The notes beneath the pieces are model-generated. The model saw only the letters and a program-made list of their open reading frames with translations. It did no database searches and was not told where the DNA came from. From Lepidurus packardi (taxonomy: Eukaryota > Arthropoda > Branchiopoda > Notostraca > Triopsidae): a stretch of DNA of 64,000 nucleotides. Made by a program: the position numbers and the translations under genes. This document shows positions 5,280 to 40,179 of this stretch, piece by piece; within the stretch, counting starts at the first letter, position 1; each line of letters starts with the position of its first letter. The stretch is taken from assembly GCA_023053545.1 (NCBI GenBank), contig JAKZAN010000142.1, positions 1-64,000 on the forward strand. Reading direction: 5' to 3'.

Positions 5280-7355
5280 ATGAGCAATTCTTATAACCTT
5301 AAGCGCCAGGGCGAGGATCTCGAAGAAATTTAGAATCCACTCAGGAAGAAGCTAGTGATATCTTGTCCACTCCCTCCTTCGGAACTCAAACCTAAACCCA
5401 TATTTTTGATGAACACTTCCATCTATCTACTTACATCTGCTGAAGAATATAAAGAAGCATATAGCATGCTGGCCCAGATCAGCCAGCCCATGTCGAGACC
5501 TACATACATGCAGCATTACTAAATCAACCAAAACTCAATCGTCAAAGCTATCACTCTCGGTTACACCAGCCAAGACATTATTCAGGTACTGGAAAAATAT
5601 ATGAGAAATGTGCAAATCCCTCCCGAAATGATCAATATCATCAAACTCACTACCATGAAGTACAATTGCGCAAGGATGTACTTAGAATAGATTGAAGACG
5701 GCAATTTCTACTTCCTAGAAATTGATGAGCAAACTTACTTGGAGTTCAAGCCAAGTGATTTGAAGGATTTTAGTCCTCCTATAGCAAAGGAAATCAACCG
5801 CTTTCCCGAGAACGGTAAAACTATCATCAAGCTCAAACTGGGATGTCATAAATAAAATTTCATTGCATAAAAACTTTACAAACTCAAAATCCCTTTCCAT
5901 TATGAATTCGCCTACAAATCTAAAAGGAACAAGTATCAGAGGAAAAGATATAAGACAGGCTTTGAACTCAATATAGATGATGGAGTGCTGAGTCTCAAAG
6001 ATCTTAAGATATAACTGAAGACTTTCACAAAGCTACGTAGTTACCAAGAGGAGGCTCTAAAGTCAATATTCTTCTATAACAAAGCCAGAAAGTAGGAAAT
6101 GGCAAAAAGTGGTGTGATTGTACTGCCCTGTGGGGCAGGTAAGACTTTATTAGGTATTTCGGTTGCGTGTAAAGTCAAGAAAGAGACACTGATTGTTTGT
6201 GCTGGAGATGTAGGCGTTGAACAGTGGAGAAGAGAGGTTCTAAAGTGGACTTCTGAAATCCATCCTGATCAGGTAATAACTCTAACAGCAAAAAGTGATA
6301 AGGATTTTAAAAGGAATGTTAAGGATGATACTCCGATAATACTAATCACATCATACAAGTTCCTTTCTTCCAAATTTTCAAAAAATTAAAAAGGGGACTC
6401 AATTAACTCCAATTACGAGTGGCTGCGTAAAATGCCCTGGGGTCTCGTAATATATGATGAAGTGCAAGGGCTCCCTGCTAAAGACTGTCAGGAAATTCCT
6501 AACAATATTCAATCACATTTACGGATAGGACTCACTGCGACTCTATACCGAGAGGATGAAAATATCGACATGCTGGACTATTTAGTTGGGCCTCTTCTAT
6601 ACTAAGGGAATTGGAAAGATTTTGTGGAATCAGGCTATTTAGCAAATCCATATTGTATTTAGATTAGAGTAAAAATGAGCCCTCACTTTATGAATCGCTA
6701 CTATGATAAGAAACTAACGAAGGATTCTCGAGAGCTCCTTTATCGCGCAAACCCAAATAAACTTCGTTGTCTTTCATATTTAGTGAAGGTGCACGAGGAG
6801 AGAGGAGATCAAATAATTATCTTCTGTGATTCTGTTCCTCTGATCCTCCACGTTGCAAAAGCTATCGGTAGATTCGCAGTTTTTGGAGAAGTACCGATTG
6901 AAGATAGGAACTTTATTTTCGAGTTTTTTAGAACTGGAAAAATTAAAACCGTCTTGATGACCAAGACAGGTGATGAGGGTGTCGATTTGCCTAATGCTAA
7001 TGTTGGAATAGAGCTTACAATATTCCAAGGATCCAGAAGACAGTCTCTCCAACGACTTGGCAGGATCATGAGACAAAAGGAGAACCCTACAAATGAGTAT
7101 AATGCTTTTTTCTATTCTCTAGTAAGTGAAGACACAGACGAGAAAAAAGGCTTTTTGAAGAGACAAGGATGTATGGTAGACTTGGGTTTCCAATACGATA
7201 TCCTAAACTAAAAGGACCTGGAATATCATGACGAGAATAACAAGTATAATTACTTGACAAAGATCAAGTAAATCCAAGATGAAGATGGGTATCTGAAAGA
7301 ACTTCTTGCAGAAAAATAGAAGGAAAGGGAGAGAGAGAGGGAAAGGCACCCATGA
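5280..7355 (+). CDS. ERCC3: TFIIH/NER DNA translocase XPB (Rad25)
   Basis: A 691-aa intronless frame. XPB is the 3'-5' translocase of TFIIH that opens promoters for RNA polymerase II and acts in nucleotide-excision repair. Seen: the N-terminal XPB domain (around SIVKAITLGYTSQDIIQVLEKY); Walker A LPCGAGKT with K288; motif II DEVQ at residues 393-396; motif III TATLYRED with the XPB-specific RED at 424-426; motif V DEGVDLP; and motif VI QRLGRIMRQ. The human motif II is DEVH, so the fourth residue differs here. TAA at 6603 and TAG at 6660 fall on family-conserved glutamates (LYEANW and AEV in animals). Length is a little short of human XPB (782 aa), mainly in the N-terminal linker. The C-terminal tail is a Glu/Arg-rich helix. 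Confidence 0.97.
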
Positions 7356-7473: not shown

Positions 7474-10400
7474 ATGGAACAAACACTCATCTAGAAGCTT
7501 GAACACTACCACATCTCCGTCCAGAAACTCTCAGAACTTCGTAACGGTATGCCTTTATCCTTTTCACTCTTTATTTAGGTCTCCAAATTAGGGGTCTCCT
7601 ACAACTAACTCGATTTCCTGCTTTTTCAGATCTCAAGTTAAGAGAAAAAGATCTGCACCACTAAGGACACTGTGTCACTAATCTGAACATCATCCTCAAG
7701 ACTCTCAAGAACCATCCACAATGCACTCCTTCTCTCAGACAACTCACTGCATTCACTCTTATCGAAGTACTTAATCACCCCAAAATTCAAATTTAAATAT
7801 ATTGTATTTTTGAATATTAGGACTCCTCCAAAATGGCTCTTCTCTTAGAATGGATACTGAACGAGATCAAATCCGCTAATTTTTGTGCATAATAAGGAAT
7901 AGCTGAATAGTAGAACCATTATGACGAGGCCCATGAATTCTAATTTAACAACTATCCACAACCTGATAGCCTTCAGTATACTCCCAACCCCCATGGTATC
8001 GAGAACCTGTATTTCGTGAGCGATCTGAATAGATTAGAGAAATCATCAGAACAGGAATTTGACCGTTCAAATGCAATGGCAAAAGTCCAGAACGACCCAA
8101 CGAGCACTCTGGAATCCCCGACTGCCTAATAGTAATTTCATCCTGCGATTCCACAATAGCAGGTTGTGCGCAGCGATACTGGCAAATTCAAGATATTCAA
8201 GCCTAAAAGCAGCATTGCTAGATAGGATGATGTGCTCTAAAATGTTTCTGATCTCAATAAAGCTGTTAATCCAGACGTCGTTGATAGAACAGACAAAATA
8301 AGGGAGCAACTGAAGGACCACAAGACTCTATAAAAACGAGACCAAAACCAATACCAAGCGTAGAATAGTTTTATACGAGCCAACCGAGTTGAATTGTAAT
8401 AGGGACAAAGAAAAACACTCCCAGTCCCAAACTTTAAGAATAGATCGACTCAAGAATAGCATCATAGAAAAAGACAGTCCCCTAAAAGTGTGTTTGAAAC
8501 ATAATCATCGGTTGAGAAGAGATAATTTTAGAGTCTGGATAAAAATTCAAACATTTCATCAAGAAGATCCAACAGCAAGAAAAACGAAAACAAGTTATCT
8601 ACGTTTTTCGAGCTGGAGGATGTTTCGTGTGTTCTGCGCAAAAAATTGGTTGAATGGCTGATTGAAATCAACTTGCTTTCTAGCATAGCTCTGCGAAACT
8701 ATGATAACCTGCATTTAATTTGCAAAAATGGGCTCATATTCCCAGAGATCATCAATTACAAAAAGGGTAGGGGAGAGGATATAAAATACTAGAAGAGTCC
8801 TAAAAACAAAACCGAGATTCAAGCCAACTACCGTAAGGTCTTCCAGGAGCTCGAGAAATATCCATCTTTTTCTTCTCAAACCCTCCACAGGTATTAACAT
8901 TTTGTGCCTCAGGCTGATGAAAAAGCGTTCTGGATGCTCCTGAAAGACATCCATAGCCACTTTACAAATCAAAACACCCGCAAATACTCCAAGCAAATAG
9001 TGTCCCGATAAATTTCTGATCGCTCAAAACAAGGTTAATCCTCTAACTGCATTGATGAATACCAAAACATCAAATCTCGTAGCAATCTCTCATCCAAATA
9101 GAAACAAGTGAAAGAGGTTTTCTCGGGAAAATGCTTACCAAATGTAATGGAGAAGATGAAACCATTCAACTAAAATACCAATTCTGGACAGCCAGAAGAA
9201 CCAATACAGAGACCACCATCTCCATTATTATAGAACCTCATGAGAAAGATATCAAGTGACGCAAGCAAAGATTGCCTCGAGAGTAAGACAAGAAGTTCTG
9301 ATATTCCCAATAATAACAGCTACAAATATCTGAGTTCAAAAAAGAAAGACTCTTACTCATCTCCTTTCCGAAAGAATTCATAACTGAGACAGAATAAAAT
9401 CTTGATGACAAGGAGTCACATTTCTTTAGAAAACTCCTTGGTACGGTCGAGGATAAGTTCTGTCCATTCCAGTACACCTAAAAGCACAAGCCATAGAATC
9501 TGCGACATTCCATCAGTGACACTTGAGATGTAGATCGTCGCATTATAATATTTGAAATAGATCGGCTACTCATCTGTCAATTCAAAAAAACCTGTCTCTT
9601 CATCACTAAATTCAGCAGACCTGTTCACTGATCCAATAAGAAACGGGACCTTACTGAATCTGGTAGTCTGTAAGCGTTTTGGCTGTAAGTCGAAGTTCCA
9701 TATTAAGCCTAAAGGGATAACTGAAGTACGTGAGAACTTTACAGGGGCCTTTTCGATCATGAGAAAGAAAGCTCCCAATACTTTCCCTGGAGAGTTATCA
9801 GGAAATCAATAATAAATAATCTAATAGGTTATCAAAGGTTAGAAATCTCTTTTCTATGCTTTGGTTTACTATCTAGTCAAATGGTAAAACCCTTCTAACC
9901 AAGAAAAATCTGCAGCTCATTTAGCAATATACTATAGTGACCCAAAACTCACCTTTCATCCATCAGATCAGAATAATATCAGCTCAATTCAACGGAGACA
10001 ACTGGTCTTATCCTGGCTCAACTCTATAATCAATCTCTCCTCCCGCTTTCACATTAAAGATGTTCATAATGTCGTTCGGTTGTCAAAGGCTGGCTTATTA
10101 TTTATCTAGCTAGCTAACATTCTGACTTCAAGACCAATAAAACCCGTTCATTAAAAACCCGAATATAGTTTTCAGTGTCAAGCAAACATTACCAAAGCGC
10201 TTCAGCACTTTGCTAATGAGTATGAGTATTTAAATGGACTCGGCTTAGAGTGGAAGTCGAGTGAGGTTAGTGAAGGCCACTAAGACATAGTTTTTGATAT
10301 TCTGATGTAAATAAAAAAGGCAGTCTAAATTCATAAAAAGTCTCAGACTTAAATCACGAAACTCGAAAATCCCCCCTCTTTTCTACAAGTCTTCCAAAAC

Positions 10401-10898
10401 ATTACACGGGAATAGACGAGTAAGAGTCGATACGAACAGAGTTAAATTAGTGATCAGACTGATCTAGAACAATCTTTTTCTAAGCCTAGTTTCTCTATTT
10501 GCCAAAACCAGATGAACAAACAGATTCCTTCGCAATCTCATGAAACTCGCGATATATAAGTCGACTGGATGAGGAAAATCGGGTTCGTCTGCAAACTAGA
10601 AATCAATTCTGGGGTGTTGCTATCACGTTTGCTGGAGAAGCTGACAATGAAAAGTCTCGATGGTATAAACCCCTGCCCCCGCTCGAAGGCAGAAATGCTG
10701 TCAAACATCAGGAGAGTGCTAAAGTAGCTAAGAAAGGGAGCAGGTAACCGGTTGTTTGAGAAGATAGACGAGATAGGTATTCTGAATGCGGACTAGCACT
10801 AGACACTGAATATTTACAGACTAATTCGAGAAGCCTATAAGCATAGTTATGTATTTACAGAGAAGAACAAAAGGAGAGTATCTATAAAGCAGGGCTGA
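7474..10898 (+). CDS. Large protein with calponin-homology-like domains
   Basis: A short first exon (7474-7546) and an intron, then a single open frame of 3.3 kb to TGA 10896. The intron most simply ends at 7629 (83 bp), joining KLSELRN to DLKLREKDL; a 32-bp version ending at 7578 keeps the same frame. Total about 1,110 aa. Three regions look like CH domains: near 8660-8960 (LVEWLIEINLLSS, then NGLIFPEIINYKKG); near 10010-10290 (VLSWLNSIINLSS, GLLFIELANI, CQANITKALQHF); and near 10560-10850 (VDWMRKIGFVCK, LLSRLLEKLTMKSLDGI, then SNIRRVLKELRK). The rest is Ser/Lys-rich linker. CH domains bind actin or microtubule tips, so a cytoskeletal or axonemal role is plausible. Individual domains are diverged and need a profile search. 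A second intron at about 7770-7823 is possible. Confidence 0.65.
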
Positions 10899-11057: not shown

Positions 11058-14000
11058 ATGAGTCAAGGCAATCTCGTATCTCGCATCCCTGAATACTCTA
11101 TCCTCAGCAGCAGGGTTTTATCTTTCGACCCCAACCCTTCTTCGAGTGACTTTGGTTCGTATCCACGTAGCAACATGCTCAGTACCAAGCGCATCGAGAT
11201 GCAGCGTAATCTAGCCTCAAACATCGCCTTGGCATCTGATGCTAACCATATTAAGATTCTGTTTCTGCATGTGTCGTAAACTTTAAAAGGACCTGAAGTG
11301 GACAATTTCCAGTAGTCTCTGCAGAATGAATATAAGATGCACTTGAGCTACTAGACCTTTAGATCCCCGCCATTTCTAACAAGAATCAATTTCTCGAAGC
11401 TTCCCATCAGTTGTGTGATTGTAAATTATTCCGATATCGAGTGGGCCAAGAGGTTCAGTGCCAACGCCCTGGGAAAACTAGCAAATTTCACGATATATGT
11501 ATATTGCAGAGAACCTCAGGAAATCAACAGCTTGGCTTTGATGATTACATAAAATCTAAAGGCAGCAACAAATTTTGACGATATAGAACTAAGCATCAGG
11601 GCGGACTATGAAGCATATAGTGATAAATATGTCCACGAAGTCACTGAGAAGAGGATTAGGAACAAGTTTTACTACAAGAATAAGCACAATGAAGTACTCA
11701 ACATCTACTATGAGGAAAAATTACGCAAAATTATTTAACCTTATGTTAATCCGATTTCGAGCAATAAGAAATTCAAGAAAACCAACTTTTTCTGCTTTAA
11801 GGATATGAAATAGCTAGTTAAATGGACCAAGTCCCGTAAGGTCTTCAAGAGAGGCCTTACCAGACACATAACGCAATCTATAATTTCTAATTCTAGCAGA
11901 TAAATGAGTTTTGTCGGACAAGCAGGCCCCGGATCACTCAACAGTATTGGAGATCTGGTGAAGGTATCATAAGCAGCGGACATCAATTACTTTCTGATTA
12001 GTGGCTCGCATCCAGAACTAAAGGAAATTTAAACTTTTTGTCTGGCAGACAAAAACACGAAGATGCTGGTTTTAAAAAACGAGGCAGATCTGAACGCAAT
12101 GCAACATCAAATGAAAATATTCGCCTCTGAATAAGGTCAATTTACCGAAAGAGATAGACTGATTATGAGCGAGAAGCTGATTGTCATGATTCATCATGAA
12201 GATGATATTACGAGACGAGAACTCGAGGAACAATAGAATTTTAATTTCCATGCTGAAGTAGTTTTGGTCCTCTCATCAGAACAACTGGCCCGCGAACTCT
12301 GGAGGATACATGAAAACTAAAACTATTACGGTCTCATTCTCATGTTCGAGGATAGATACTAGTAATTTTCAGATACTGTCGACTTACTCATGCTTGGCAC
12401 TTCTGATCACACAGACAATTACCTCCGGGTTGATAACATAAAGGTAGTCCTCAAAAGACCCAGGAATCATCCTGACGACTTCATCGACTATTCCTATGTC
12501 CAATAGCAAAATCACAAACCATTTATCGTCAGACCTGAGGACCTCGCCTAAGTTGACTCAGACTACTCTCTTATCTAGCAGATCTATAGGGCAAGAAATA
12601 CATTTTATCATCCGGCCCAGGGCATCATCGGCACTAAGGTCTTTATTTATATCCGCCGATCGCGAAGTACACTCATTGAGCTTCTTAGCACATAAATCAT
12701 GGCCAATAAGAGATTAGAACTTGAAACATACTAAGATAAGCAACAATTGTAATATTTGGTGAGCAAGACTCACAAAAGTCAGTGTGCCCTAGTCGTGACG
12801 AACCAAAAAGAGCTTATTGAGGTTATGAGATCTATAAAAAACTAGTAGAATATCTATGTACTACTAGTAAGTCCAAATGAAACTATAAGCTATGATCCGC
12901 AGATTCTCAAAACTGGCACAGAATAAGATATCAATAATTTTATCAAACAGATACCAAACAACTAATTTGCAGGAGCCTGGGGTGAAGAGAGTTATGAAGA
13001 AACTATCAAATAGCAAAAGGAGACAGCTTCTTCAGCCAGTCTCAATATCCAAGAAGAAGCTCTCAAAAGGATGGATATGGATGATGATCGACCTAGAAAA
13101 TTCTTTTTTCTACCTGGTCGGCCTATCGTGACCATTCGTATGCCAAATAATGAAGAGTCTAACAACTCATTACTTTTCGAAACGCGGATAAAAAAAAAAT
13201 TGAATGATGATGTTAGCTTTAAGACTTATCGGACATCGGAAGAAATCAGGGATATGGATAAATGGGAGGAACCACTTCAGTTCCTAATTATCAACAATTC
13301 ATATTTATAGTGGACAAAGAGGATGGCGTAGCAGTAAATCAACCAACCGTTTGAGATTATTTACTACACACAAAAAAAACTTGGCCCTTTCGTATAACTC
13401 ATCACTAAACCCAAGTACAAAAGATTCAAACTCATTGCCAACAGGTGGCAAAGCATCGAGGACTATATTATTGGTAAGTTTAAAAGGGTAACAAACCAGA
13501 AAGACATATATCAGTTAATGTCTAATCAACATCTACATATTTTCCTCCCGAAATCAGACACTCAACTCCAAAAATATCTTGATGACTACGCCTATCATTT
13601 TAATAATGAGATCGCTAAACGATGTAAATACCATTATTTCAACCTACAAGATCAGAATCAACTACTGAACGAACTCACAAAAATGGGTGAAAAGATTCTG
13701 GCTTTCTTGATTGTTAACGAGGACAGGCAAAAGGTACTTGATTAGTACTCAGGAGGAAATCTCATCTACTCGACACCCGATACTTTTAGGCAGTTAATAG
13801 TGTCTTCACTCAACTTGAATGCGCGAAACAAGCCCCATGAGAAAACCTAAGTCATTACTAAGGATGATAACGAGGCAGCAAGATATATAGCAAGCATTCG
13901 TTTTATCAAAGATAGTGAAGATCAGCCCAAGCCTGTAGTGTTTGTCAAGGAAACGAATCTGTCGTGGAGATATTTTCTGAAACGAAACGAACGAATGCAC

Positions 14001-17000
14001 AATAAATTTCTTTACAACTAATTCAGACGCTCGGTAGATCTCAGATCAAAGATTGAGAATCTGCGACTGTAAAAGAAAAACGAAATTTGGATACTAGTGC
14101 AGGGCTCGAATTAGTATTAAAAGTATAGGAAAAAACTCATGGGCTACACTGTTAAATTTATCATCTATGATTCTGCTTTTCAGACTCCGCTTCAGACCGA
14201 TGATATAGTACTGGCCTCTTCCGAAACCCATGAAATCTAGGCCTATCTTCTCAACTATCGAAAACATTCCAAACATATCATTCCTGATTCTGCTCTCCCT
14301 ACAAGTCAACAAATGCAACAGGGGATTTCCTTTATATATAACGCTGAGTTTCCGATACGGTAGGAATGTCAAGAGCTATGGAAACAAAGAGTTAGGGATG
14401 CCTTATTCTAAAGTTATTCCACATTAGAATAAATGAATTTACTTTTAAAGAAAGCTTAACGATCTCAAAGATTCGTCTATTTGGTCCTGACTCGTTAATA
14501 GAATGCTTGCCTCCAAACCCAAAAGACGCTAAAAAATCTAAGAAGAATAGTGATGCAGAGCCAGATGCAAACAAACTATGGTTTATCATTTGAGAGTCCT
14601 TAAGTGATCTTTTGTGGGAACTTCGTGGCTGATCAAAATATTTTTTTAAGAAACCTAGCCTTTACTCTGAGTAATCCCTGTACTAAGATAGCTAGAAAGG
14701 ATTTCGGGTCTCGTTAACCTATTATCGACATTTTCGTTAAGGAAGGCATGTTCGAAAAGTAGAGACTAAGGAGAAATGAAAAATTCAACCGTAGTTTTAA
14801 ACTACATTATTACCAACACAGAGAAGATTTGTTGGACAGTATCGAGACCATAAGTAACAAGAACGCTGTCGTGGTAGTCGGAGAGTCAGATCTAGAATCC
14901 CACCTTAATATGAAGCCCAACTTAAAATTTATCAGCTATGATCCTAATAAATAAAAAATCTCCGACGATATAACTAAAGCTATCCTAGTTTCAAACTCAC
15001 CCCAATAACTTTTGTTATACTTTCGAAACCTACCAGATAATAGACTATAGAAAGCTAGAGCTATTAGAAGACCTGTCAATATTTACATAAAGAATGACGT
15101 CGACAGTCTTAAACCTTTAAGAAGAACATCATAAGAAGCTGCAAACAGAAACGCCTATCTGCAAATCCATGGTTACGCATACCTGAATCAGCTTTAGAAT
15201 AATTTGTTAAAGCTGCCTAATAATGAGATGGCGATTATCTTGATCGATAAAGTAGGCATCGACCAAGAAAAATAAGTTTAAGAAATCATCAATAAAGTGA
15301 AGCTCAGTGATCCGAAAAAATAAATAAAACTGATACTGCATTCGAATCGAGGCAGAAGACCTAAGGAAGAATCGATCAATAAGATACTCGTAACTGATTC
15401 TGATTAGCTCATCCAGGATTTTATAGAGAACATCCCTTTAAACCCACATCTCCCATTATAACAACATCAGCCTGTCCCATCCAAACTTCCATCAGATATC
15501 CCATTACCATTATTTACCTCTATTCCAAAAAAGGATAACTCTGGCTCCCAAAAAAACATTATAATAGAGTATAAGAAAAAGCAGCCGGCCACCAGACCTC
15601 CATCTCCCCAAACCTTCTTAGACTGTTTAGATGCACCCGCTGCTCAAATAAACTTCGCCTTCACATTGTCAATGTACCTGAGTAACGCTTAAGCTTTAGA
15701 ACCAAACCTTGCTTCACCTCTTATAAAACCCAACCTCCCAAATGTGTAAGTACCAATCCTAGAATCGAAGGATATTATAAGGAGTGAGAAACAGATGGAG
15801 AAAGGATGGAGGCTGGGGCTACTCTGTCTGGAAGATAGTTGGATGTCCCGAACGATTATGTTCATCTTGGATAATACAGCCAAACATATTAACGTGCACG
15901 TACAAAAAATGTCATCGGTAAGGCAGATATAAGAGTTTTTGAACATCAACTACAGAAAGTTTGAGAAGTTCAGCTTGATTCTGGCTCCCTACCAACTAAC
16001 ACACTTCATTGAGGCTTCCAAATTGGAAGACTTGTATCACACACTGAGAGTTTTTCTTCTACATGATCCTATAGTTCTAACTGAAATGTCAATCATCTTC
16101 AATCTCGGGTGGGAACGTTCTGATCTATCCTTACCTTTCCGCAATAAAGAACTTCCCTTAGAGTTAATTAACGCTGAAAAATACTATATCTATGCCCAAC
16201 CTCAATACCTGAAGAACCGCATAACCATGCCGGAGGCTTCATATTTTACTTATAATAACGCCATTGAGTTAAAGGAACTTCTATCAAGCGTAAATGAGCC
16301 AGCCTGTTTCAATCTTGTACTTATCGATAGATAAATGTTCAAAGCGGTTCGATAGATCCCCTATCTCTTTCCTAATACAAGACTACTTGTCTTGAGTCCT
16401 TTTGTGACCAAGAGGTAATTTTTCGACCTAAATGGACAGGATTTTTGGATATTCTCAACAACCAAGTAAAAAAGCATCGAATAAGAACTATCTCGATTGC
16501 TCACATCTGTAATACCGACTCTCCGCAGATCCTCTCCAGGTGTCTACGACCCAACGATCAAAACTCTGATGCTCACTGCTGAGCAGACTCCATTTATCTC
16601 TCATCTTGATCTAAGTGACTATAAAAAAGTCATTATAGAACCTGGTTAAAACCTGAAGTTCAACAAACCAGAGCTTTTGACTGGTAACCAAAGAGTATTT
16701 ACTTTGAACTCCTAAAATACTGGGAAGCTTATTGTTGAATCTCAAAAGGGCTTAAATATATAGGCGCAGAACAATTCCAATAAACTCAACGTATCGCTCA
16801 GACAGATCAGAAACATTGAGGAAGCCAGCGAAATCAGATAGTAAATATTAGTGAATTCACCTAAAGATCACTTTAAAAATGATGGTTCGAATGCAATATC
16901 CTAGAATCTGAAGAATGTGGATATTAGAAGCGAAAATAGTTTGTGCATGAAAAGTGAGGAAGGCCTCAAGATCCATAAACATTAAAGAGACAGGCAGCTT

Positions 17001-19697
17001 CACTCTATATTTAGCAAAAAGTTTTTATAAAGATACTCATGTCTAGGTTTCTACTACTTCGGATCAGATCATTTAATACCCTACAGCACAAGTATCCGCT
17101 GTCTCAGCTCTCCCGCTGATCTTGAAACCGAATTCAGAACTAGTCCCCATCGAATTATGGTCATTTTCTGCAAAGAAGACTCCCTAAATACGATACCCCG
17201 ACAGATATTTGCAAGTTAAAGAGTCAAGATTTTGGTTGTTTCATCTTACCATTTAGAAGGATTCTTAACTGTAGAATCAAAAGAAATCCCAGATGTCGTG
17301 GCTCGTCTTTCCTAATACGATCGAAACTGTCGTTTAATCTATTTACTTGTCCAATAAAACTTCAAGTTTAATCCCCGATAACTCATTTAAAGGCTGCAAA
17401 AAGAGGAACAACCCTATACAGAGATTCAGTTCGATGATACAACACATCTATCAAACATAGCGAGTAGATTTAGGGAAAGGATCGTTAAGGCTTACGTTGT
17501 CTGCCAAGAAAACATCAAAGACACTGTCAGAAATATAATGCATAACCATAAAATTAATTTTTAGATTCACAGCTCGAAATCCTTGGGTCAACGTGCTTCT
17601 CCTTCATCGAGGCGCAATCTTAACAATGCTTCAGTTACTAACGTCCTCAAAATGAATGATATCAAGTACGATCTTGTTGAGATAGACGTAAAAAAGCCAG
17701 TAATTAGTTAATAGTATGACAGTCTGTAGTCTATTCTGAAAAAGGAAACTGATCGGCATTTTGTTTGCCATGAGAAGAACACAAGACTTATTGAGATGTT
17801 ATCTTCATTGCCTGGGAGTATCCATATTATAGGGAGCGACGACTAATTAGCCTTAAAGATTGGATAACTGCAAGGTAAACCAACGGTGTTACTCACATAA
17901 GGATAGGGAAACATACCTGTAAATATCGATCGCAATGGATCGTTTGTGATTTATTTAAAGAATAAAGGAAGATTGGTGGCTCTCCCAAAAAACACGAAAG
18001 TAGTCACCTCTCTGAGACAGGTTGCTCAGTTATTAAAGGTGAGTAGCCCCCCTAAAAAGCCTAACTTGAAGCTGGAAGATTTCTAGAATGTCAAAATAGT
18101 CTACGATGACGCTTTATCCCGAGAGAACAAGATTATCCTGCTTATGTTCACCGATTAAAATAAGCGAACCATTCCTCTGCAGGTTTCTCATTGGCAGGAA
18201 CTACAGAATCTTGCGCGATAGTCCCCTAATACTCTTTTTATCGCTATGGTGGGTAAAGATAAGGCTCGGACCCTCAAACCTATCCCCTAAGACCTCAACG
18301 TTGTGCTTGTTAAAAGGGATAATGACTTTAAAAAAATATACAGAAATAAGTAATATCCTCGACATGCAGGCCTAGATACTATTGTTGAAGAAGATGAGTA
18401 GGAGATCATCCTAGACTTAGACCACAGATACACTAGTATGCCTGATTCATTTCTAAATGAATTGCTTTATAAGCTCGGTAATCCACACCCAAAATCGAAG
18501 GTGCCCGGCATAGGAAAATCAGAAGGCGGCCCTCATTAAAGCAGCTAATCTCCCAATAGGTAGGCTCCTAAAAACTACGATGATATGTAGACCATCACCG
18601 ATCGATTGCGTTAATTTCTGCCAATTCTGAATGGAGAGGTTGTTAGGATATTGTTACCTTCAGAATAGCTCGATTTAAAGGATCTGCTCTCTTCGGAGTT
18701 CGATACTCTCATGATCGTTAAATACACGAATTTTGGTTATCTAGAGAGCTACCTTGCTCGCAACGCTAAATATCCGACTGTTGTTTTGTTACGAGATGAT
18801 CTCCTCCCAAAAGCGGCGGAATTAGCCTCAAAATATCCCCATATTAGGATCATCAGAATCGGCTACCGCCAATAACAAAATGCAGTCGGCGTTACTCTCA
18901 GTCTTGGCCCACATCAAACCATTTAACTCTTAAGATGGATACTAGACTAAAATTTCATAATTTAAAAAAGGCTCAACAATGAGCTCGACAGAATACAAAA
19001 GCCGACAATCAAGGGCTAATAAAATGCTCTCCTACCTTTAGACCATGTGTCACAAAAGATGGTCCTATGCTTAAACTCACATCGGAATGAATTTGTGAGG
19101 GTAGCTGTTTAGAAGATGTGCGGTGACAGAGTAGAGTTTCTATAATACTTCAATGCGGGAAATCTCAGAGCAAGACTCGAAACTCTTTAGGAGGATGAGG
19201 TTGTTCTGATCCTCAGCAACGATGACCAGATTAAAGATGTAGAGAGTATCAATACAAGAAATCAGCGATGCTACTACATCCGGTATATTTCAGACCATAT
19301 GAAACCATCAGAAACCTTCCAATACAATGATCGACTATTGTACACAGGTTTCACCCTGCAGAGCGTCTCTAACTTCATCAATAACCTGGTGTACAAAACT
19401 TATAAAAGACTCGAGAAAAGGTAAAGATCAGCAAGATCAGGAGGGCGACAACTCAGACACATCAGCTCAGCACGAAGTCTAAGAAATATGAGCGAATAAA
19501 AAAAATACCGAAGAAAATACATCCCCAGTACTTTCGGAACTGCACCACGATTCGAGTACTTTGATGATAAGTATGTGCCGATAGTGGAACCAGCAAAGAG
19601 TGGGCGAGGCAGACAAGCATAAGAAACTGGAGGTAATAGAGTATTGCGTCGACCCACGAAAGAGAGGCATAGTCAATTCTAAGAATATGGGTTTTGA
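11058..19697 (+). CDS. Giant 2,879-aa protein of repeated alpha/beta modules
   Basis: One uninterrupted frame of 8,640 bp from ATG 11058 to TGA 19695-19697, with well over 100 TAA/TAG codons and no intron needed. I do not recognise the family. It is built of modules of roughly 100-130 aa with a recurring strand-helix order: a strand such as KVFIYIRRSR, VNIYIKNDV, VRILLPSEE or KMVLCLNSH; a helix; a strand-turn such as ELETYEDKQQL or EFLEYFNAGNL; a helix; a very hydrophobic strand such as CALVVTNQKE, MAIILIDK or EVVLILSNDD; a helix; a strand such as IYVLLVSP or IKLILHSN; then a short strand and helix such as KILVTDSDELIQDFIENI or LLYTGFTLQSVSNFINNL. This resembles tandem degenerate receiver- or flavodoxin-like (beta-alpha)5 units. 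I see no conserved phospho-acceptor Asp or P-loop. The last 100 residues are basic and Arg/Ser-rich. Function unknown. Confidence 0.85.
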
Positions 19698-22333: not shown

Positions 22334-24655
22334 ATGAAGATAATCATCGAAGACTTGGTCGTCGAATTTCCATACACATTAGTCTTCAACGAACAGTTGT
22401 AGTATATGACCCACCTTAAGAGGGCACTGGACAGTCAAGGACATGGTCTTCTAGAGATGCCTACAGGTACAGGAAAAACTATCTGTCTGCTTGCTCTCTT
22501 AACATCCTACTTGAGTAGCCGTCCTCGATATAAAAAGGTAACTCATCAGAAAATTATGCCAGTTGGTCTATTGCACCCGCACTGTAGGAGAAATGGAGAA
22601 GACTCTCAAAGAGATCGATAATCTACTGCAGAGAAGATATAAAGTTGACCATAATAGCAAGAAGTTTTTGGTAGTGGGACTGACGTCCAAGAAAAACCTA
22701 TGTGTCCATAAGGATGTTGACATTTGGAGACAGCACGACAAAGTTGACTACTAATGCCACAAAAAGACAGTTTCGTGGATGCGTCACAAGCATAAAGGAC
22801 TGGAGTTGGAGTCTGAGATGCTATGCCCTTTTTTCTAAACATATGCTGCCTCAACCACCAAACTCAGTCAGGAACAAAAGTATACTGTGTATGGACTCAA
22901 TGAGCTCAAAGCCTATGCTCATGAAACTGTAAAGTGTCCTTATTTTACTGCAAAAGATTCGGTGAAAGACTCAGACATCGTAGTTTTTAATTACCTCTAT
23001 CTATTGGAACCACGATTCGCAGGATCTTTCATTAAAGATTTAGCTAAAGACACAATTGTAGTGTTCGATGAAGCGCATAACATAGACGATGTCTGCATTT
23101 AAGCGTATACTGTTAAACTAACAAGAGATGTGCTCGAAGGTGCTGACCGAAATATCGAAACCCTACAGAATAAGATGCAAGAGATGACAGTCTAAGCCCA
23201 GGGCAAATTCGAATAAGAATATCAGAAATTGCTGAAAACCCTGCGTGGAAACACCCCTGATGAAAAGCAAGAAAAGGATAATGCTGTTCTTGATAAGAAA
23301 AAGATAGTACCTAACTCAATCATCAACACTTCCGAGTACCTCAAGAAGCTCAAACAAATCAACCGCCTGCTCAAGATCAAACTGCAATACAAATATATAC
23401 TCTACGAGGACGTTCGAAAGTTCACGGACGATATTTCTCTCCACACTGAGGTCTAATAAAATTTCTATAAGCTTGTCTCTAGAAAGCTATCCTCAATTCT
23501 TGACAGTTTTCAAATATCAGAACTGGAGGCGTTCTCTTATCTTGAAAGGTTCGCCTTCAGCATTGAAATGCTTCAGTATTCAAAGGGTTTCAAAATAATA
23601 TTCTAACCCCACCCTTTTGATAGCGGGCTTGCTGATCCAAGACTTACATTTGCTTGTCTTGATGCTGCCATAGCTATGAAGCCCGTTTTCAGCTCTTTTC
23701 CGTGTGTCGTACTCACTTCAGGGACGATAAGCCCTTTGGATCTGTATCCTAAAATATTAGGATTTAAACCGATAATTTCTAAATCGATCAGCATCTAGTT
23801 AGCTCGAAACCCAATTAACCCAATGATTGTGACGTCTACAGTGGGACGAGTACCGCTTACTTCTGAATATACATCACGGCAGGACAAGAATGTGAGCAGA
23901 AGCTTTGGCTAGTTACTTTCCCGGCTTTCTGACGTGGTTCCCGATGGTATCTTAGCCTTTTTTCCTTCGTATCAGTACATGCAGTTCGTTGTCAAAGAAT
24001 GGGACGAACTCAATATGATCGAAACACTAATGAAAAAGCGTTATATCTTTATGGAAAAAAAAGATCCAGTGGAGAGTTTGGACCAACTCCAGAAATATAG
24101 GAAAGCATGTGATATTGGCAGAGGAGCTATTTTTCTGGCCATCGCAAGAGGAAAAATTGCAGAAGGGATAGATTTTGAAGAACATTATGGTAGATGTGTT
24201 GTTATGATGGGGTTCCCAGTCCAGAACTCCAACGAGCCTATCTTGAAGTAAAGGATTAAATATATGGTCGAGAGCGGACAGATCAAGGATAAGAATACAT
24301 TTTTCGAGTTCGATACTATGAGGCAATGTGCCCAGTGTTTAGGGAGAGTCATGCGCAGGAAGAACGATTATGGGCTCATGGTCATGGCTGACGTGAGGTT
24401 CAGGAATCATGGAAAGTATACCAAACTTCCAGTTTGGATTCGTAATTGTTTGGATAGCAACAATATCGACATCACTATTGATGCAGCCATAGCTGAAGCA
24501 GGATCCTTCTTCAGGCAGATGGGCGTAGAACACGAGATGGTAATTAACATTTTAATAAAAAAATATGCATATCGTTTTGAATTTAGAGCGAAAAACTGTT
24601 TAAAAAAGAAGCATTTTTCAGCGCCCAGCTCGAGATGCTAGGCAGCATACATTGA
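22334..24655 (+). CDS. ERCC2: TFIIH/NER Fe-S helicase XPD (Rad3)
   Basis: Three exons (22334-22537, 22563-24539, 24587-24655) with introns of 25 and 47 bp give 749 aa (human 760). XPD is the 5'-3' helicase of TFIIH. Walker A PTGTGKT has its lysine at residue 48, as in human XPD. The four cysteines of the 4Fe-4S cluster are present (KNLCVH, the Cys after DY plus TAA, LCPFF, KCPYF). Box II is DEAH (D237 region: [10 protein letters not shown]). [20 protein letters not shown] and [17 protein letters not shown] match motifs V and VI. The 25-bp intron restores LVYCTRTV. The last intron restores a natural C-terminus (LEML near the end). Both TFIIH helicases lie within 20 kb of each other. Confidence 0.97.
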
Positions 24656-24710
24656 TCCAAATATGGTTTCAAGCAAGTCTAGAAAAGTATTTATGAATAG
24701 GGTATGGTAT

Positions 24711-25562
24711 TCAGTTCGAAGCTGGTTGGCCAGAATACTCGTGATCGTGAGAGCTATCCTTCATTAGTCTGTCTACCGAGTCAGCGATGTTTTGGAAATC
24801 TGATTTAGACATGTCCAGCACGAATTCCTCCATCACATTTACATAACTTTCATAAATTTTGACGAAGTATTAGTTCTATCTCATGAATTCAGGGATTTTC
24901 ACATGCAACAGCTTATCGTAAAAGTGATCCATAAATGACTACGATTGACCTTTCCGCTCAATGTATTTGCTATCTCTCCCCACTATGTACGCCCTTAACT
25001 CTTCTCTCGAAGTAGGCCGCAAAGTGTCAGAAGTAAACAGAGCTTTTTTAGTCGAGTTGGAATACTAGTAGGCTCGTATAATTCCTATGACACCTATTGC
25101 CTAGAGCCTATCAGCATAGCGGGGGTAGTAGTAGAGAATATCATCTTTCGCAGAGTATGAGTCTCCATTCTGACTAAACGACACAAGATCTACCATCTTA
25201 ACAATCGTTTCCTCGCTCTCCTCCCCAATATAACGTAATGAAGCTTGGGAGGAAACGCAGTGGTTAATATTCCTAATTATCGAGTATAGGTTTTAATGGT
25301 TCTTATTCTAAGGGAAGAGTTTGGGGTCGTCAACGTCATGAAGGAGAGAAGCGAGTTACACACACTCAAATAGTGACAAGGAGCTTAAGGGATTGTGAGA
25401 GAGTGATCTTTGATAGGCCTGTAAAGCCTGTCGGACATGGTAGTTTACCCTGAGAGTATGCTGGAAGCCATGACTATTGCATAGTTGTTTCGACTGATAA
25501 AACTATTTGAGAAGAGAAATGCAAATGTTGACCGGAGCCGAAGACTTTTCTAAGGTTTGCAT
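24711..25562 (-). CDS. HD-domain phosphohydrolase-like protein
   Basis: A 283-aa frame from ATG 25562. HGFQHTLRV, LASLLHDVDDPKLF and a following Asp-rich helix give the H...HD...D metal-binding pattern of the HD superfamily. It most resembles the small bacterial/eukaryotic HD hydrolases with ALLHDIDD. Substrate unknown; likely a phosphomonoesterase or phosphodiesterase by family. It converges on XPD with a 55-bp gap. The frame stays open upstream without a TGA for at least 95 more codons (see the next entry), so the true start may lie further out. Confidence 0.75.
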
Positions 25563-32198: not shown

Positions 32199-35100
32199 TC
32201 ATAATTTATTGAGCATGATTCGATTTTGTAGTGTTTTGAACAACCTTTTGTGGCACCATCCCAAGACCTACTTTTTTAGATGGTTTGGGACGAAGGGAAA
32301 GTTAAGTTTGCTGGTCTAGATTCTGATTGTATGAGTTGTTTAATTCTTGCTGAACAGATTTGTCTGAAGATATTCGTCATGGGGATTCACGAAAATCGAA
32401 CAAATCGTCTTGATATTCTTTTTGAGACTGCCTTTTTGCTTTACCAGGTCTTTGTATATAACTGGGAAGTAGCCTGGTTTGCAGTGGGTCTTCAGGTAGT
32501 TCATCGATATGTTGAGAGGAGTTTTTATTAGTGAAGCTGAGGCGGGAAGTCGAGTATTTAGGAATCGATGGCTTAGCCTCCACTGTAGTTGATTCAGTTG
32601 TAAGATATCCTGACAGATATCATTAAAAGCGTATAACTTGAGTGTTTCGTCAAGGGCTTAGGCTATCACTTTACGTGAGGTCTGGAACATTGCAACAATT
32701 TCAGAGTGATTCAGCATACCAAGATGTCCGACTCCTTGGTTGAGCTGCGTCAAAAAGTAATCTGTTTTGAGCATCAAATTGATGCTTTGAGAAGCCAGTA
32801 CGTCCTGAACCTGTACATATACCTTGTAGTGGTGCACCAACTCTGAGATACTCAAAGCAGCAAAGTCATATAACACAGGAAACTCAGTGCCAATCCGTAA
32901 CAATCGCATTTCAATCCGCAACAGACGCTTCTCGATTTCTACAAACTCAAGAAAGTGTGATTCCTTTGCCAGGCCTCGAAACCTGTCGATGCTAATGATG
33001 AAATACTGTTAAGAGGAGGGTTTGGTCTGATCCAAAACGAGAGACAACAATTGGACAAACTTGAGCCATATCTTTTGCTGTTCCATCAGGCTTTCACCTT
33101 CTAAGAAGAGACGTAAGTTTTGTTATTGAATCTAGGTTGTATCCCCCAAGATAGCCTTGGAGTTGGCAGGGCTGAAATATTTGAAGATGTCCTTGTCTAG
33201 ATGGAAGGTGAGTTGCCGGTTTGTTTTTGATAGATAGACAATGACCGTAAAGTTGCAGTCATGGGACATCTTACAAACTGTAAATACACCAAACTTGAAA
33301 GTCTACCTCCCAGAGAGTTAGATATATTTGAGTTTAATGGTACATTGGACAATAAATTTGACAGTAGCCAGACGACGATTTAGGAAACTGTTGTTACTTA
33401 ACTAGACCTTCGATTGTGATACTCCCTTGTGTTCCTTCTGGGCGACATTGAACTTATTATAGAAGAGGTACTTGGGTCTGGACTCTTCGGGCTGCACAAT
33501 GCTTAAGTAGTAGTAGAGGTAGTCTTTCTCATAACGGAAGAGGCTGCTAATTTGGTTAGCAACTTAAAAAAGACTCTCCTTAGCCAACATGCGGGAAAAT
33601 TGCTCCCCATCTTACCTCGAAGTGTTTTTAATGATGTCTTCACGGGTCGCGATGAACTTAATACAGCGAGATTTAGAATACATGGGTACGACTTAGAATT
33701 TGTAGAGTCCGCAGCGTATCCTGTAGAGGCTCTTCGACTGGTAACCTGTCAGGCTGAGGGTACAAGGACCTAAGTTATTCACCTTCCAAACATACTTTAT
33801 TTAAGTCCTCCAGAAATAGTTATCCATAAATATCTTGGAACCTTTCGATGACTACTTCTGCTAGCTGATCAGGTTGAGCTTTACGTACTTATAGAATAGC
33901 TATTCACGCCCTTCCAGGAATTCACCAATGCATTACTTGGTTTCCCAGACACCAGCACAAAACTTAGGATCTTCAGAAAGGAGGGTTACGGGCCATGTAT
34001 GACTTTCTTTGTTTAAGCCTTCATATTAAGCAGGGAAAGTCGGTACAGCTGCTGCGTAGGTATCTTGGCGCTGACATTCGATGATTGTGTTGTCTCGGCT
34101 CTATCCTCTTCGCAAAACGATATTTCGGAACTTGGTTTCGTGATCGGCAGTACGCAACCGTGGATAGCCTGGTGCAATGTGCGTACTTTCCTTAAGGAGA
34201 TTGGTGGAGAGTCTTTCATGCGATGGCTGATGATTTTGGGACTGGCAATTAAGAGTCAAAAACTCATTGAAAATAGCCCGAATTCTTTATTTTTAACGGA
34301 GTCTTTGGGAGTGCGAATCGCAGGAAATGGGAGAAAAATCAACTTTGGGTTCAAATTTTTTCTTCAATTTCTCAATCTTGGATACCCATGGCTCGGATTT
34401 TTGGAAAACGACTCCCACTTGTTTTATTATTTTTTGCTTCCGGCTAGTCAGTCCAACCGATAGTTTTTCTGCAAGTTTTCGACTTTTCTAGATGTCTGTA
34501 ATGCAAGTCCACAACCCTGTCTTTCTTCGATCAGATACGAGGGTATTGCGAATAAAATGGATCAGCACCAGCCTCATCTTACGCTCATCTCGAGGACTGT
34601 TCAGACCTAGCTGATGAACCAAGGGGTTCGCCGAAACACTGTTCCTGCTGTTGTTGGGATATTTCCTTTGTTTGTGCTTCACAACAGATAACCGGATAAT
34701 GGCTGGGTATTAATTTTGATCCCGACTTGGTTAGCCCAGATCGATGGACTCCTCCAGAAAATACTCCCTAAACTGGGCGAACAACCAATCCAAAACTTAG
34801 TTACTGTACCGAAGAGGAGGAGCTGCAGGAAGCTGGAAAAAACTTTAAAATCTAGCAGTGTATCTCGCTGCAGCATATTTTCGGAAGAATACCTCCAGTC
34901 TCAGAATTCTATCACCTGGAATCGTGATCTCCATCTTTTATATCCACTTGCATTGATTATCCAGCAGCACAGGGCTTTCTTTACTCCTACAAACAAAACT
35001 ATACGCCTTTTGTCTAAGATCCAACAGTTATTTCGTAATGGATGGTTGCCCGACTTTGTTTTTGGACGCATTTTACGTAGACTTTACATGAGAATTGACA

Positions 35101-36794
35101 CCATTAGATTCCAACTTGGCTTTACCCGCAATCTTCTCACTCTCCCCTAATGCCTTAGGCCAATACACTGAAGCCTAACTCTAGCCATAGGATTCATTCT
35201 TTTCATTGGATGCTCCGAGAGAAGACAATTAGATTGTTAATTGATAGGAATTAGGTTTGAGATGATCCTGTACAAATTATGGAGACTCGGGGAGTAGGTT
35301 GTTGGTCTCCTCGGGACGGTGTATTTCTTGATGAGGAAGGCTACTCTTGTCAAGCTTATTTGGGATATTCTAGAAGTTTATGGAGCGGCGGGGTATTTGT
35401 CTGTCTTGTGGTTGCTGTAGCTCCAAAGTGTTTCGAGAGTTCTTGCTGAGTTGGTTCTGTATATATTTAATGTTGACAGGCCCACTTTGGCTGTGAACCA
35501 GATTCCTCTTGTGGTTGCTAAAGCTGCTATTATTGGAACCTGCAAAATGGTGCAGAGTTTCACCCACAACAGCCCGACATGGACTCCAGAATAGTCCATC
35601 TTTCGATTGAGACAAAGATATACGTGAGTTGAGTGGTAGCATGTCGTTGTGGCTGAAACCCTTACTGTCTCTTGCTTTTAGTGCTGCTCCCAAGTTCATA
35701 TGGGAACTGGATTTATTCGAGCGAGGACGAGGAAGCAGCCAATCATTGAAATCCAAATCGCATGTGTTAAGATCTTAAAAGCTGAGCTCTTTCTCATGAA
35801 ACGAGTACTCCATAGGTGATTGGACAACTTTATTCTAATGATAACTCTGCAGTTGTGGGGGAACTAAGGGATATTTAGCTGATGACTTGGGGAGCCGCGT
35901 ACTGTCTTGAAAGAGTGACAACTTGAAGTTCCTGTTATGGCTAGTGAGTCTCTGTTTAGAGCTGGGTTTCTGGTTTAGTTTAATTGGTGGAGCATCAGGA
36001 AATTAGGTTTGGGTTTTGGTGTAAGTGGAGTTTGGTCGTTTGGGGTGGTTTCTATTGTTATCACAAATCTTTGGGTTCTCAGCATATAATTTTTTATGCA
36101 GATACAGGATCCTATTGGAAAAATTAGAATTGAGTCTGGTTAGTTTGATTATATCTACAGCCTTGTTCATTTAGGATGCTTCCTTCTAGATGTCTTTCCT
36201 TTGGTTCCACACTCGACTCTTCAGGAAGTGAATTTTGAGTGCTAATGAGCTCTTATCTTCATCTGTAGGACATCGTTGCAGCAGTCCTTCAAGTTCCGCC
36301 AAAACTTACAGCCCGAGGTCCAGATCTTTCTGATCATCATTGATCAAATTTTTTGCATACAATAAGTATAGGATCGATAATCTTGACTTTGTGTGTTTTA
36401 TGCTTTCGAGCCCTACACGCAGATCTGGGATGGCTTGTCTGGCAAACGACACTAGCTACTAATGAAGCTCAGCTTCGTTTAAGAGCTTCGCATATAAGTT
36501 CGATAACATTTATTTGATCAGATAGGTTGAGGGTTTAGGTTGACTCACCCGGACAACTTGATCATACAGTAACTTGGCTCTATTAATTTTCTGGGCAGTC
36601 TCATCTTAGTTCTTTTCGATGAAATCAATCAGGCGCTGGTAGTCTTGGGTTAAGTTTTATTCAGGATCTTTAGGAGAAGAAAGGTGAAGTTAGGCGTCGC
36701 ACTAGTGCTGGATGCTGGCGTCAGAAGAGCGTTAAGACTTGTTATTCCTGATATGAGTGGAGCCAAAAGATGTTTGGTTGTTATGGGCGGACAT
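32199..36794 (-). CDS. Uncharacterised 1,531-aa protein
   Basis: One unbroken frame of 4,596 bp (ATG 36794, TGA 32199-32201). I do not recognise the family. Residues about 50-210 are helical with TPR-like spacing (RAKLLYDQVVRV, SNLYAKLLNEAE, YLLYAKNLINDDQ, LALKIHFLKSRVW). Residues 210-560 are Ser/Asn/Pro-rich and probably disordered. The C-terminal half is folded, with many aromatic and hydrophobic strands (YVWKVNNLGPCTLSLTGYQ, YLYYYLSIVQPEE) and long helices near the end (ELVHHYKVYVQVQDVLA, MLKTDYFLTQLNQGVGH). No catalytic motif seen. The C-terminal part could be a structural subunit of a trafficking or ciliary complex, but nothing fixes this. Confidence 0.7.
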
Positions 36795-38023: not shown

Positions 38024-40179
38024 TCAGGAAAGTGTGCGGCCGCTAAGGTTTGCACGAGGCAGTCGAGAGTTCAGCTGGGAGCCTTCCTCTTGCAGCTTTC
38101 TGAGTTCTTCTTCGATGTGCCTGGTTTCCTGTGAGTCCATCTCCACTTTATTCCTACCACAGCAAATAACGGATGTATACAATGTAATATTTTAATTTCT
38201 TACCTAAAGATTTGGTACTCTTTCCTCCATCTATTTTCCAGCTCCAGTATGTTTTAGTACGCATCGAAAATTCCCAGTTCTGAACTGCGCTCCATCAGCT
38301 TCTGTTCTGTGTCCTGACTCTACACTTCTTATTATTGCTCCATGATCGGTCTTTTTAACTAGTTTCGTAGATCGCCCAGTCCTTACAACCCCAAACAGCC
38401 CTCATGTGTTAAGCTTTTTTACTCATAACTCATATTCAAACTCAAGGTCCCAGACTCCAACTCCCGATACCAGCGTTTACGTCTCAACTCCTATATGACA
38501 TTCAAGCGGCTCTCCTCAGGTCTCACAGTAGAGATGATTTCTTCTACGATCGAAGCCACAGATTTGCGATGAATATCATTAATAAGAATAAGGGATTCAT
38601 TGAGATTGTTGGTACAGAGCGTCTTGGGCTCGGTGCGATCGGTGAGAGGTAGTTTGAACTCGTATTCATTAGCACTTACGACCTTATTGTCTCGGCTGGC
38701 TGTGGCTTCTTCGGAGTCCTGCCTGAGACGGTTATTCTCCTGCTCCAACTCGAAGATCCTGTCATTGAGAGAGTCCACAAGTCTACGAAGTTCGCTGATC
38801 TCATCATTTTGCTTGCAAACAAACTCCTTTTCGCAGTCTAATTCAAACTCTAGGATTTTGATTTTTTATTCTAGATCGTCGCCTATGACGCTAGCAGAAC
38901 CACTCACGCTCTACTACTGGCTCCTGGGTTTAGGAAGAGGCGGTAATGACTTCTTTTTATTAAGCACAGGTAGATTGGCCTTCATCTCTTCGAGGATGTA
39001 TGTTTCGTAGCCTTTGACCCTCTTTTCCAGTTCAGAGTTGTCTTATAAAACACGATCCAGTTGCAACTGAAGTTCAGCGACTGTCTTCTATCTGTTTACT
39101 ATTGCTCGATTGCGTATCTTTTTGGCAATCATTCCAAAACGTAGAGTGGACATAGTTTCTTGAATGTTTGTCGGGTGGGGAGAACACGTTATAATTAGAG
39201 AGGTCTTTGAGTTACCCCCCAGTGACTACTGCAGCAATCTTGTCAACTTCGATTAGCGATAGGGCACATGGTTGGCCTTGCCGTCCTTACTCTCCGTGAG
39301 ACACTTTATCACTTTAGAGAGTGTAGCGAGGCTAGAGTTGATTTTGTTAGCCTCATTAAGGGCTTTACCTTCGACCCCAGTCTTGTTAATTTTTTCTGAT
39401 CCAGCTAGATCGACGATGTAGAGTTTGCCGTACTTCGAAGACATGTTTTCTGTATTGTTTTGGTATATGGTGATTGCGAAAATCAGGTGAGACCGAGACG
39501 AGCGATCATTCATATTAGTATGAGCTACCACCCGATTCCTATTGCTAATTTGGAAGAGTGTTACAAGTTCCGATTCATGGTTGATTATTTTTTCGCTAAG
39601 GTCTTCAACGTAAATTCCCTTCTTGTGATGGGATCTAATCTTGAGATCGGTCTTGGTGGTGTCGAGCAAGTCTCGGATTTTTTCGAGGTACAGTTCCATA
39701 GCGGATACCTTCAGCCTGATTTCGATGTGAGGAGGAGCGTACTTGATGGCGTTAAAAACTTGTTCGATCTCAAAATAGTCATCATCAATTTCAAATTAGT
39801 CTAGCTAAACAAAAAAGAGTTGTACCACACGCGGGATAATGCCTTTTTCTGACTCCTCCAGCCCAGGCCCTAATATTGTGTGAGTCTTGCCTGAAGAAGT
39901 TTGTCCATAGGCGAAGATGGTGCCGTTAAACCCTTCCAGGACACTAGATACGACAGGCCTCGCAGCAGCCTGGTAGACGTGGGCTTGTGTAGCATCACAA
40001 TCAAGTATCTCGTCGAAGACGTATTTATTATTCTCAAAGTCCTTGTAGGTTTTGATGAGGAGGGTGGAATTAGTGAGTTTCTGGAAGACGGGAGAGGGTA
40101 GGGAGTCAGATTCACGGGTGGTGAATGGCTTGAATCTGCAGCATACAGTGATGTTTGCTTCGGAAACCTTAGTGTCCAT
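38024..40179 (-). CDS. Kinesin-1-like microtubule motor
   Basis: Exon 1 (40179-38204) and exon 2 (38153-38024) with a 50-bp intron; 701 aa. The motor is N-terminal: VCCRFKP near residue 15, P-loop GQTSSGKT, MNDRSSRSH (switch I), LYIVDLAGSE (switch II), HVPYR, SKLTRLLQ(E)SLGGN, and a C-terminal motor strand RFGMIAKKI. The TAG at 39228-39226 takes the Glu/Asp position of LLQ(E/D)SLGGN, strong evidence for UAR = Glu. The tail is coiled coil. The motor is closest to kinesin-1. The segment around 39780-39800 (VELDEFEIDDDYF) is an insertion relative to the family and could be an in-frame intron. Confidence 0.93.

Follow-up and report, generated by a model that had tools for sequence, protein, structure and literature searches.

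A giant protein of tandem receiver- or flavodoxin-like units as a candidate non-catalytic scaffold in a genome read with the peritrich code

The 64,000-nucleotide stretch analysed here (positions 1 to 64,000 of contig JAKZAN010000142.1, forward strand, in the Lepidurus packardi assembly GCA_023053545.1; hereafter the window) is part of contig C131 in the 108.6-Mb assembly and carries, at 11058–19697 on the plus strand, a gene for a giant protein of 2,879 residues (336.3 kDa, isoelectric point 6.61). We found that this protein is internally repetitive and has at least two giant relatives in the same genome, and that its units, where they could be modelled, are predicted to adopt a receiver- or flavodoxin-like fold from which most working residues of receivers appear to be lost. 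On balance, we lean towards reading the chain as a non-catalytic scaffold in which such domains are arranged like beads on a string.

Under NCBI translation table 30, the gene is a single open frame that starts at an ATG at 11058 and ends at a TGA stop at 19695–19697, with 109 TAA or TAG codons read as glutamate. The remaining five frames across the same interval contain 45–111 TGA codons apiece, and at the TGA rate of the window the chance of meeting none in 2,879 codons would be about 10^-24. The frame is therefore supported, as the first-pass annotation had proposed. The code itself is sound, since neighbouring frames read in the same way gave Pfam matches, namely an XPB helicase (5280–7355), a protein with a calponin homology (CH) domain (7833–10898), an XPD-type helicase (22593–24803) and a kinesin (38071–40179).

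The repeat pattern within the protein exceeds what its composition gives, as the best off-diagonal self-alignments scored 114, 109 and 106, compared to maxima of 52–74 in six shuffled copies. The annotation had described a module recurring every 100–130 residues; repetition of this kind was confirmed, but the period was somewhat longer, with first strands (placed by eye) spaced 99–172 residues apart (median approximately 137) and a single gap of 246 residues spanning a linker. Two short closing motifs that it had singled out, KILVTDSDELIQDFI and LLYTGFTLQSVSNFI, correspond by position to the strand-5/helix-5 ends of units U10 and U19, respectively.

Starting from each first strand, we placed 19 units by eye (U1–U19, all on the plus strand) and scored each of them in a leave-one-out test against a profile made from 12 or 13 others, using 200 shuffles of the same unit for comparison. 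Eight units scored above all 200 shuffles: U3 (residues 368–515; 12159–12602), U4 (520–642; 12615–12983), U5 (684–812; 13107–13493), U6 (821–945; 13518–13892), U9 (1216–1332; 14703–15053), U10 (1334–1465; 15057–15452), U12 (1703–1828; 16164–16541) and U19 (2662–2787; 19041–19418). Five more were weakly supported, with one of 200 shuffles matching U8 (1086–1212; 14313–14693), U14 (1988–2088; 17019–17321), U15 (2087–2180; 17316–17597) and U17 (2353–2480; 18114–18497), and four matching U7 (954–1078; 13917–14291). The other six were unsupported. For U2 (210–355; 11685–12122), U11 (1580–1700; 15795–16157), U16 (2229–2335; 17742–18062) and U18 (2524–2640; 18627–18977), all drawn by eye alone, 76, 22, 50 and 18 of 200 shuffles reached the score; the same was true of 106 for U13 (1830–1925; 16545–16832), a possible unit, and of 21 for U1 (62–205; 11241–11672), which resembles U5 without reaching significance in this test. 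Among five stretches outside the units, where 138, 32, 20, 53 and 8 of 200 shuffles reached the score, are the linker at residues 1466–1579 (15453–15794; 138/200) and the C-terminal tail at 2788–2879 (19419–19694; 53/200), neither of which is unit-like; the tail also gave no Pfam row above its cut-off. Thus, the initial estimate of roughly 20 units holds insofar as 19 can be drawn, 8 of them firm and 5 weak, while 6 follow from the pattern alone.

Direct comparisons between parts of the chain pointed in the same direction. Residues 2682–2777 in U19 matched 543–632 in the U4 region (expectation value (E) 1.4e-5), residues 1221–1324 in the U9 region matched 957–1066 in U7 (E 2.3e-5) and residues 85–141 of U1 matched 708–764 of U5 (E 2.4e-4), with all of these E-values applying to a search of three proteins, without correction for approximately 270 query windows.

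A search of the protein's own genome returned two places with clear similarity, at E 1e-20 on contig C161 and 6e-17 on contig C125, together with a weak third at 7.8e-4. Both of the former are giant single frames, encoding 2,860 residues (C161:2788–11367) and 2,633 residues (C125:45274–53172). In MAFFT alignments they are 21% and 22% identical to the window's protein and 13% identical to each other. The strongest unit-level match was that of U5 to the C161 paralog (E 4e-23), and U4 matched both paralogs (E 4e-12 and 4e-4). Moreover, a profile built solely from 16 window units scored above 2 bits at 6 places in one paralog and at 5 in the other, while 200 shuffled copies gave no place at or above 8 bits; the best score of this profile in other frames of the window was 6.6 bits. 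The reciprocal genome search with the C161 protein recovered the window's gene at 6e-21 and nothing else at E ≤0.1, the C125 gene included, and a direct match between C161 and C125 appeared solely in a window-wise comparison, where the uncorrected E-values were 1.4e-5 and 3.9e-5. Judged by sequence similarity, a family of three giant paralogs is supported, and three is a lower bound because the genome search scores the best candidates alone. Frames of at least 120 residues beside the paralogs did not match frames of the window, except for one kinase-like frame. A weak match (25.8 bits) to residues 1647–1764 of the giant was seen on a 13.5-Mb contig (C4:1801925–1802203), perhaps a decayed fragment or a chance hit.

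The fold of the units was approached by AlphaFold2. The model of U4 is a confident alpha/beta sandwich, with a predicted local distance difference test score (pLDDT) of 84.9 and a predicted template-modelling score (pTM) of 0.78, and its nearest solved folds are response-regulator receivers; the model of U10 agrees with a receiver-like fold at lower confidence. The (beta-alpha)5 arrangement of receivers is present in the U4 model and, less confidently, in that of U10, with helix 4 unassigned in both. The earlier suggestion of receiver- or flavodoxin-like units is accordingly backed by the models with good confidence for U4 and moderate confidence for U10, but the remaining 17 of the 19 units are without a confident model. 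By sequence, the best match of a mixed profile in the Protein Data Bank (PDB) was a designed Rossmann 2x3 protein (E 1.3e-4).

Foldseek placed tandem SIS proteins at the top for a two-unit U9–U10 model, with a template-modelling score (TM) of approximately 0.3 and a root-mean-square deviation (rmsd) of approximately 19 Å, the model itself being of low confidence. Such rows raise the possibility of a multi-site sensor, in which some units would bind small ligands, for instance nucleotides or sugar phosphates, along the sheet edge. The fold rows indeed include SIS-type sugar-phosphate regulators and isomerases, there are weak sequence rows (E 0.59 and 1.2) to two sugar-isomerase entries, which we take to be SIS proteins, and a Ser or Thr is found at the end of strand 4 in 13 of 24 alignable units. 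However, the unit alignments contain no invariant or nearly invariant column, the tandem SIS rows superimpose poorly and Pfam gave no SIS row, so that we regard a sensor as unlikely.

Given that receivers are the nearest solved folds, the chain could also be a phosphorelay hub built from degenerate, partly active receiver domains. Pfam searches gave no Response_reg (PF00072) match, whether run with the complete proteins, with 16 units of the window or with 3 pieces of the paralogs, and profile comparison of the units with six Escherichia coli K-12 receivers (hhalign) gave a probability of 0.2%. Six paralog units, picked from earlier matches, reached 0.3% against the same receivers and 95.1% against the window's units. 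For the active site, 24 of 31 units could be aligned (the other 7 were dropped as mostly gaps): an Asp near the end of strand 3 was found in 4/24, an acidic pair after strand 1 in 2/24 (strand 1 being wholly gapped in 5 and partly in others) and a Lys near strand 5 in 4/24. Both acidic sites coincide in a single unit, located in the C161 paralog at residues ~1285–1410, where no Pfam row was obtained; this unit favours a hub and is a hint, no more, of receiver descent. The other 23 aligned units do not show the combination, although gaps at strand 1 make some of them unassessable, and all 34 receiver-family matches in the genome are free of in-frame TAA or TAG codons and look bacterial. We therefore consider a phosphorelay hub very improbable. 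As far as sequence goes, the units are not receivers and the active site is gone from most of the alignable ones, although the Asp in 4 of 24 units means that the reported lack of a phospho-acceptor is mostly, and not entirely, correct. The reported lack of a P-loop held throughout, with no GxxxxGK[ST] match in any of the three giant proteins. Whether the resemblance to receivers reflects descent or merely a common fold, we cannot tell.

Outside its own genome, no relative of the giant was found in Pfam, NCBIfam, PDB sequences or viral and prokaryotic contigs. The claim that the protein is undescribed hence stands for Pfam, NCBIfam and PDB sequences, with ciliate proteomes lying outside the search. 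This scope leaves room for a ciliate structural protein that has already been described under another name, since the contig collections searched were viral and prokaryotic. Sfi1-type centrin/spasmin-binding repeats are helical, while the two modelled units are alpha/beta and the protein gave no Pfam row. The giants of protist myonemes described in PMC12661445 are repetitive Sfi1-type scaffolds with many centrin/spasmin sites. Together with the lack of matches for the tested proteins in Pfam, NCBIfam and PDB sequences, this makes a previously described protein unlikely.

A scaffold is the simplest reading, because the three chains have no P-loop, the window's protein has no clear membrane-type stretch, the domain copies have diverged and some are separated by linkers. 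As the working residues of receivers are mostly lost, the protein may instead serve as a long binding scaffold. It would comprise units of approximately 95–150 residues (8 firm and 5 weak, up to 19 by pattern), joined directly or via linkers, that would retain their fold as binding surfaces and have diverged toward different partners. The whole chain could resemble beads on a string and might extend over tens of nanometres. We give this non-catalytic scaffold a modest preference.

Several observations weigh against it. Beyond the six units that the leave-one-out test left unsupported, the weak units U8, U14, U15 and U17 scored 4.2–6.5 bits, which is not above the 6.6 bits that the full profile reached in an unrelated frame of the window. 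Shuffling also removes the strand/helix periodicity, and any alpha/beta domain may beat such controls, which favour the scaffold reading and are therefore not the strictest possible. The homology to the paralogs is strong and collinear just over residues ~460–860 and weak elsewhere. The two-unit model, of which U9 is a low-confidence half, reached a pTM of 0.48, and the low-confidence packing of its neighbours offers no support for a rod. Finally, hydropathy, the sole check for membrane or secretion signals, peaked at 1.46 in the window's protein and at a borderline 1.68 in the C125 paralog.

More speculatively, and with the odds somewhat against it, the protein could be the first member of a class of giant eukaryotic proteins not described before. 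In this class, at least 8 and up to ~19 receiver-fold domains on one chain would have given up phosphotransfer and diverged into separate docking sites, and the chain would act as a modular ruler or scaffold in ciliates that use the peritrich code. If so, a fold chiefly familiar as a bacterial switch would have been multiplied into a ciliate scaffold of the 300-kDa class, with no fewer than three copies. Giant scaffolds would then have a repeat class of a new kind, in which an alpha/beta domain is pared down to a structural pattern, and the protein would be a concrete candidate to study in the cells of such ciliates.

Around the gene and in the assembly, we made some further observations. The XPB-type and XPD-type helicase genes lie on the same strand approximately 15 kb apart, with the giant and the CH-domain gene between them. 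By eye, the N-terminal part appears to be missing from the XPD frame, which, if so, would imply upstream exons. The CH-domain frame encodes 1,021 residues with one Pfam CH domain at residues 721–798 and, by eye, more degenerate CH-like stretches, and a frame of 1,531 residues on the minus strand (32199–36794) gave no Pfam row above its cut-off. The 34 receiver-domain matches are located on contigs C42, C43, C44, C53, C55, C67 and others; the absence of in-frame TAA and TAG codons from all of them makes these contigs look bacterial, and they may derive from a symbiont or contaminant in the ciliate assembly.

Among known systems, the closest are response-regulator receivers (PF00072) and pseudo-receivers such as the N-terminal domain of KaiA, from which the giant differs by the 0.2% profile probability of its units, by the presence of both acidic sites in 1/24 units, by the unassigned helix 4 in the U4 and U10 models and by the many units per chain. 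SIS domains, arranged in tandem in glucosamine-6-phosphate synthase, share the repeated alpha/beta sandwich, yet the TM of ~0.3, the rmsd of ~19 Å and the missing Pfam SIS row set the giant apart. The Sfi1-type myoneme scaffolds are likewise giant and repetitive, but, as described in PMC12661445, they carry many centrin/spasmin sites, whereas the modelled units of the giant are alpha/beta. Finally, de novo designed Rossmann 2x2 and 2x3 proteins gave the best, or were among the best, PDB sequence-profile rows for the giant's units; these are artificial single domains, and the match reflects the strand/helix pattern that they have in common with the units.
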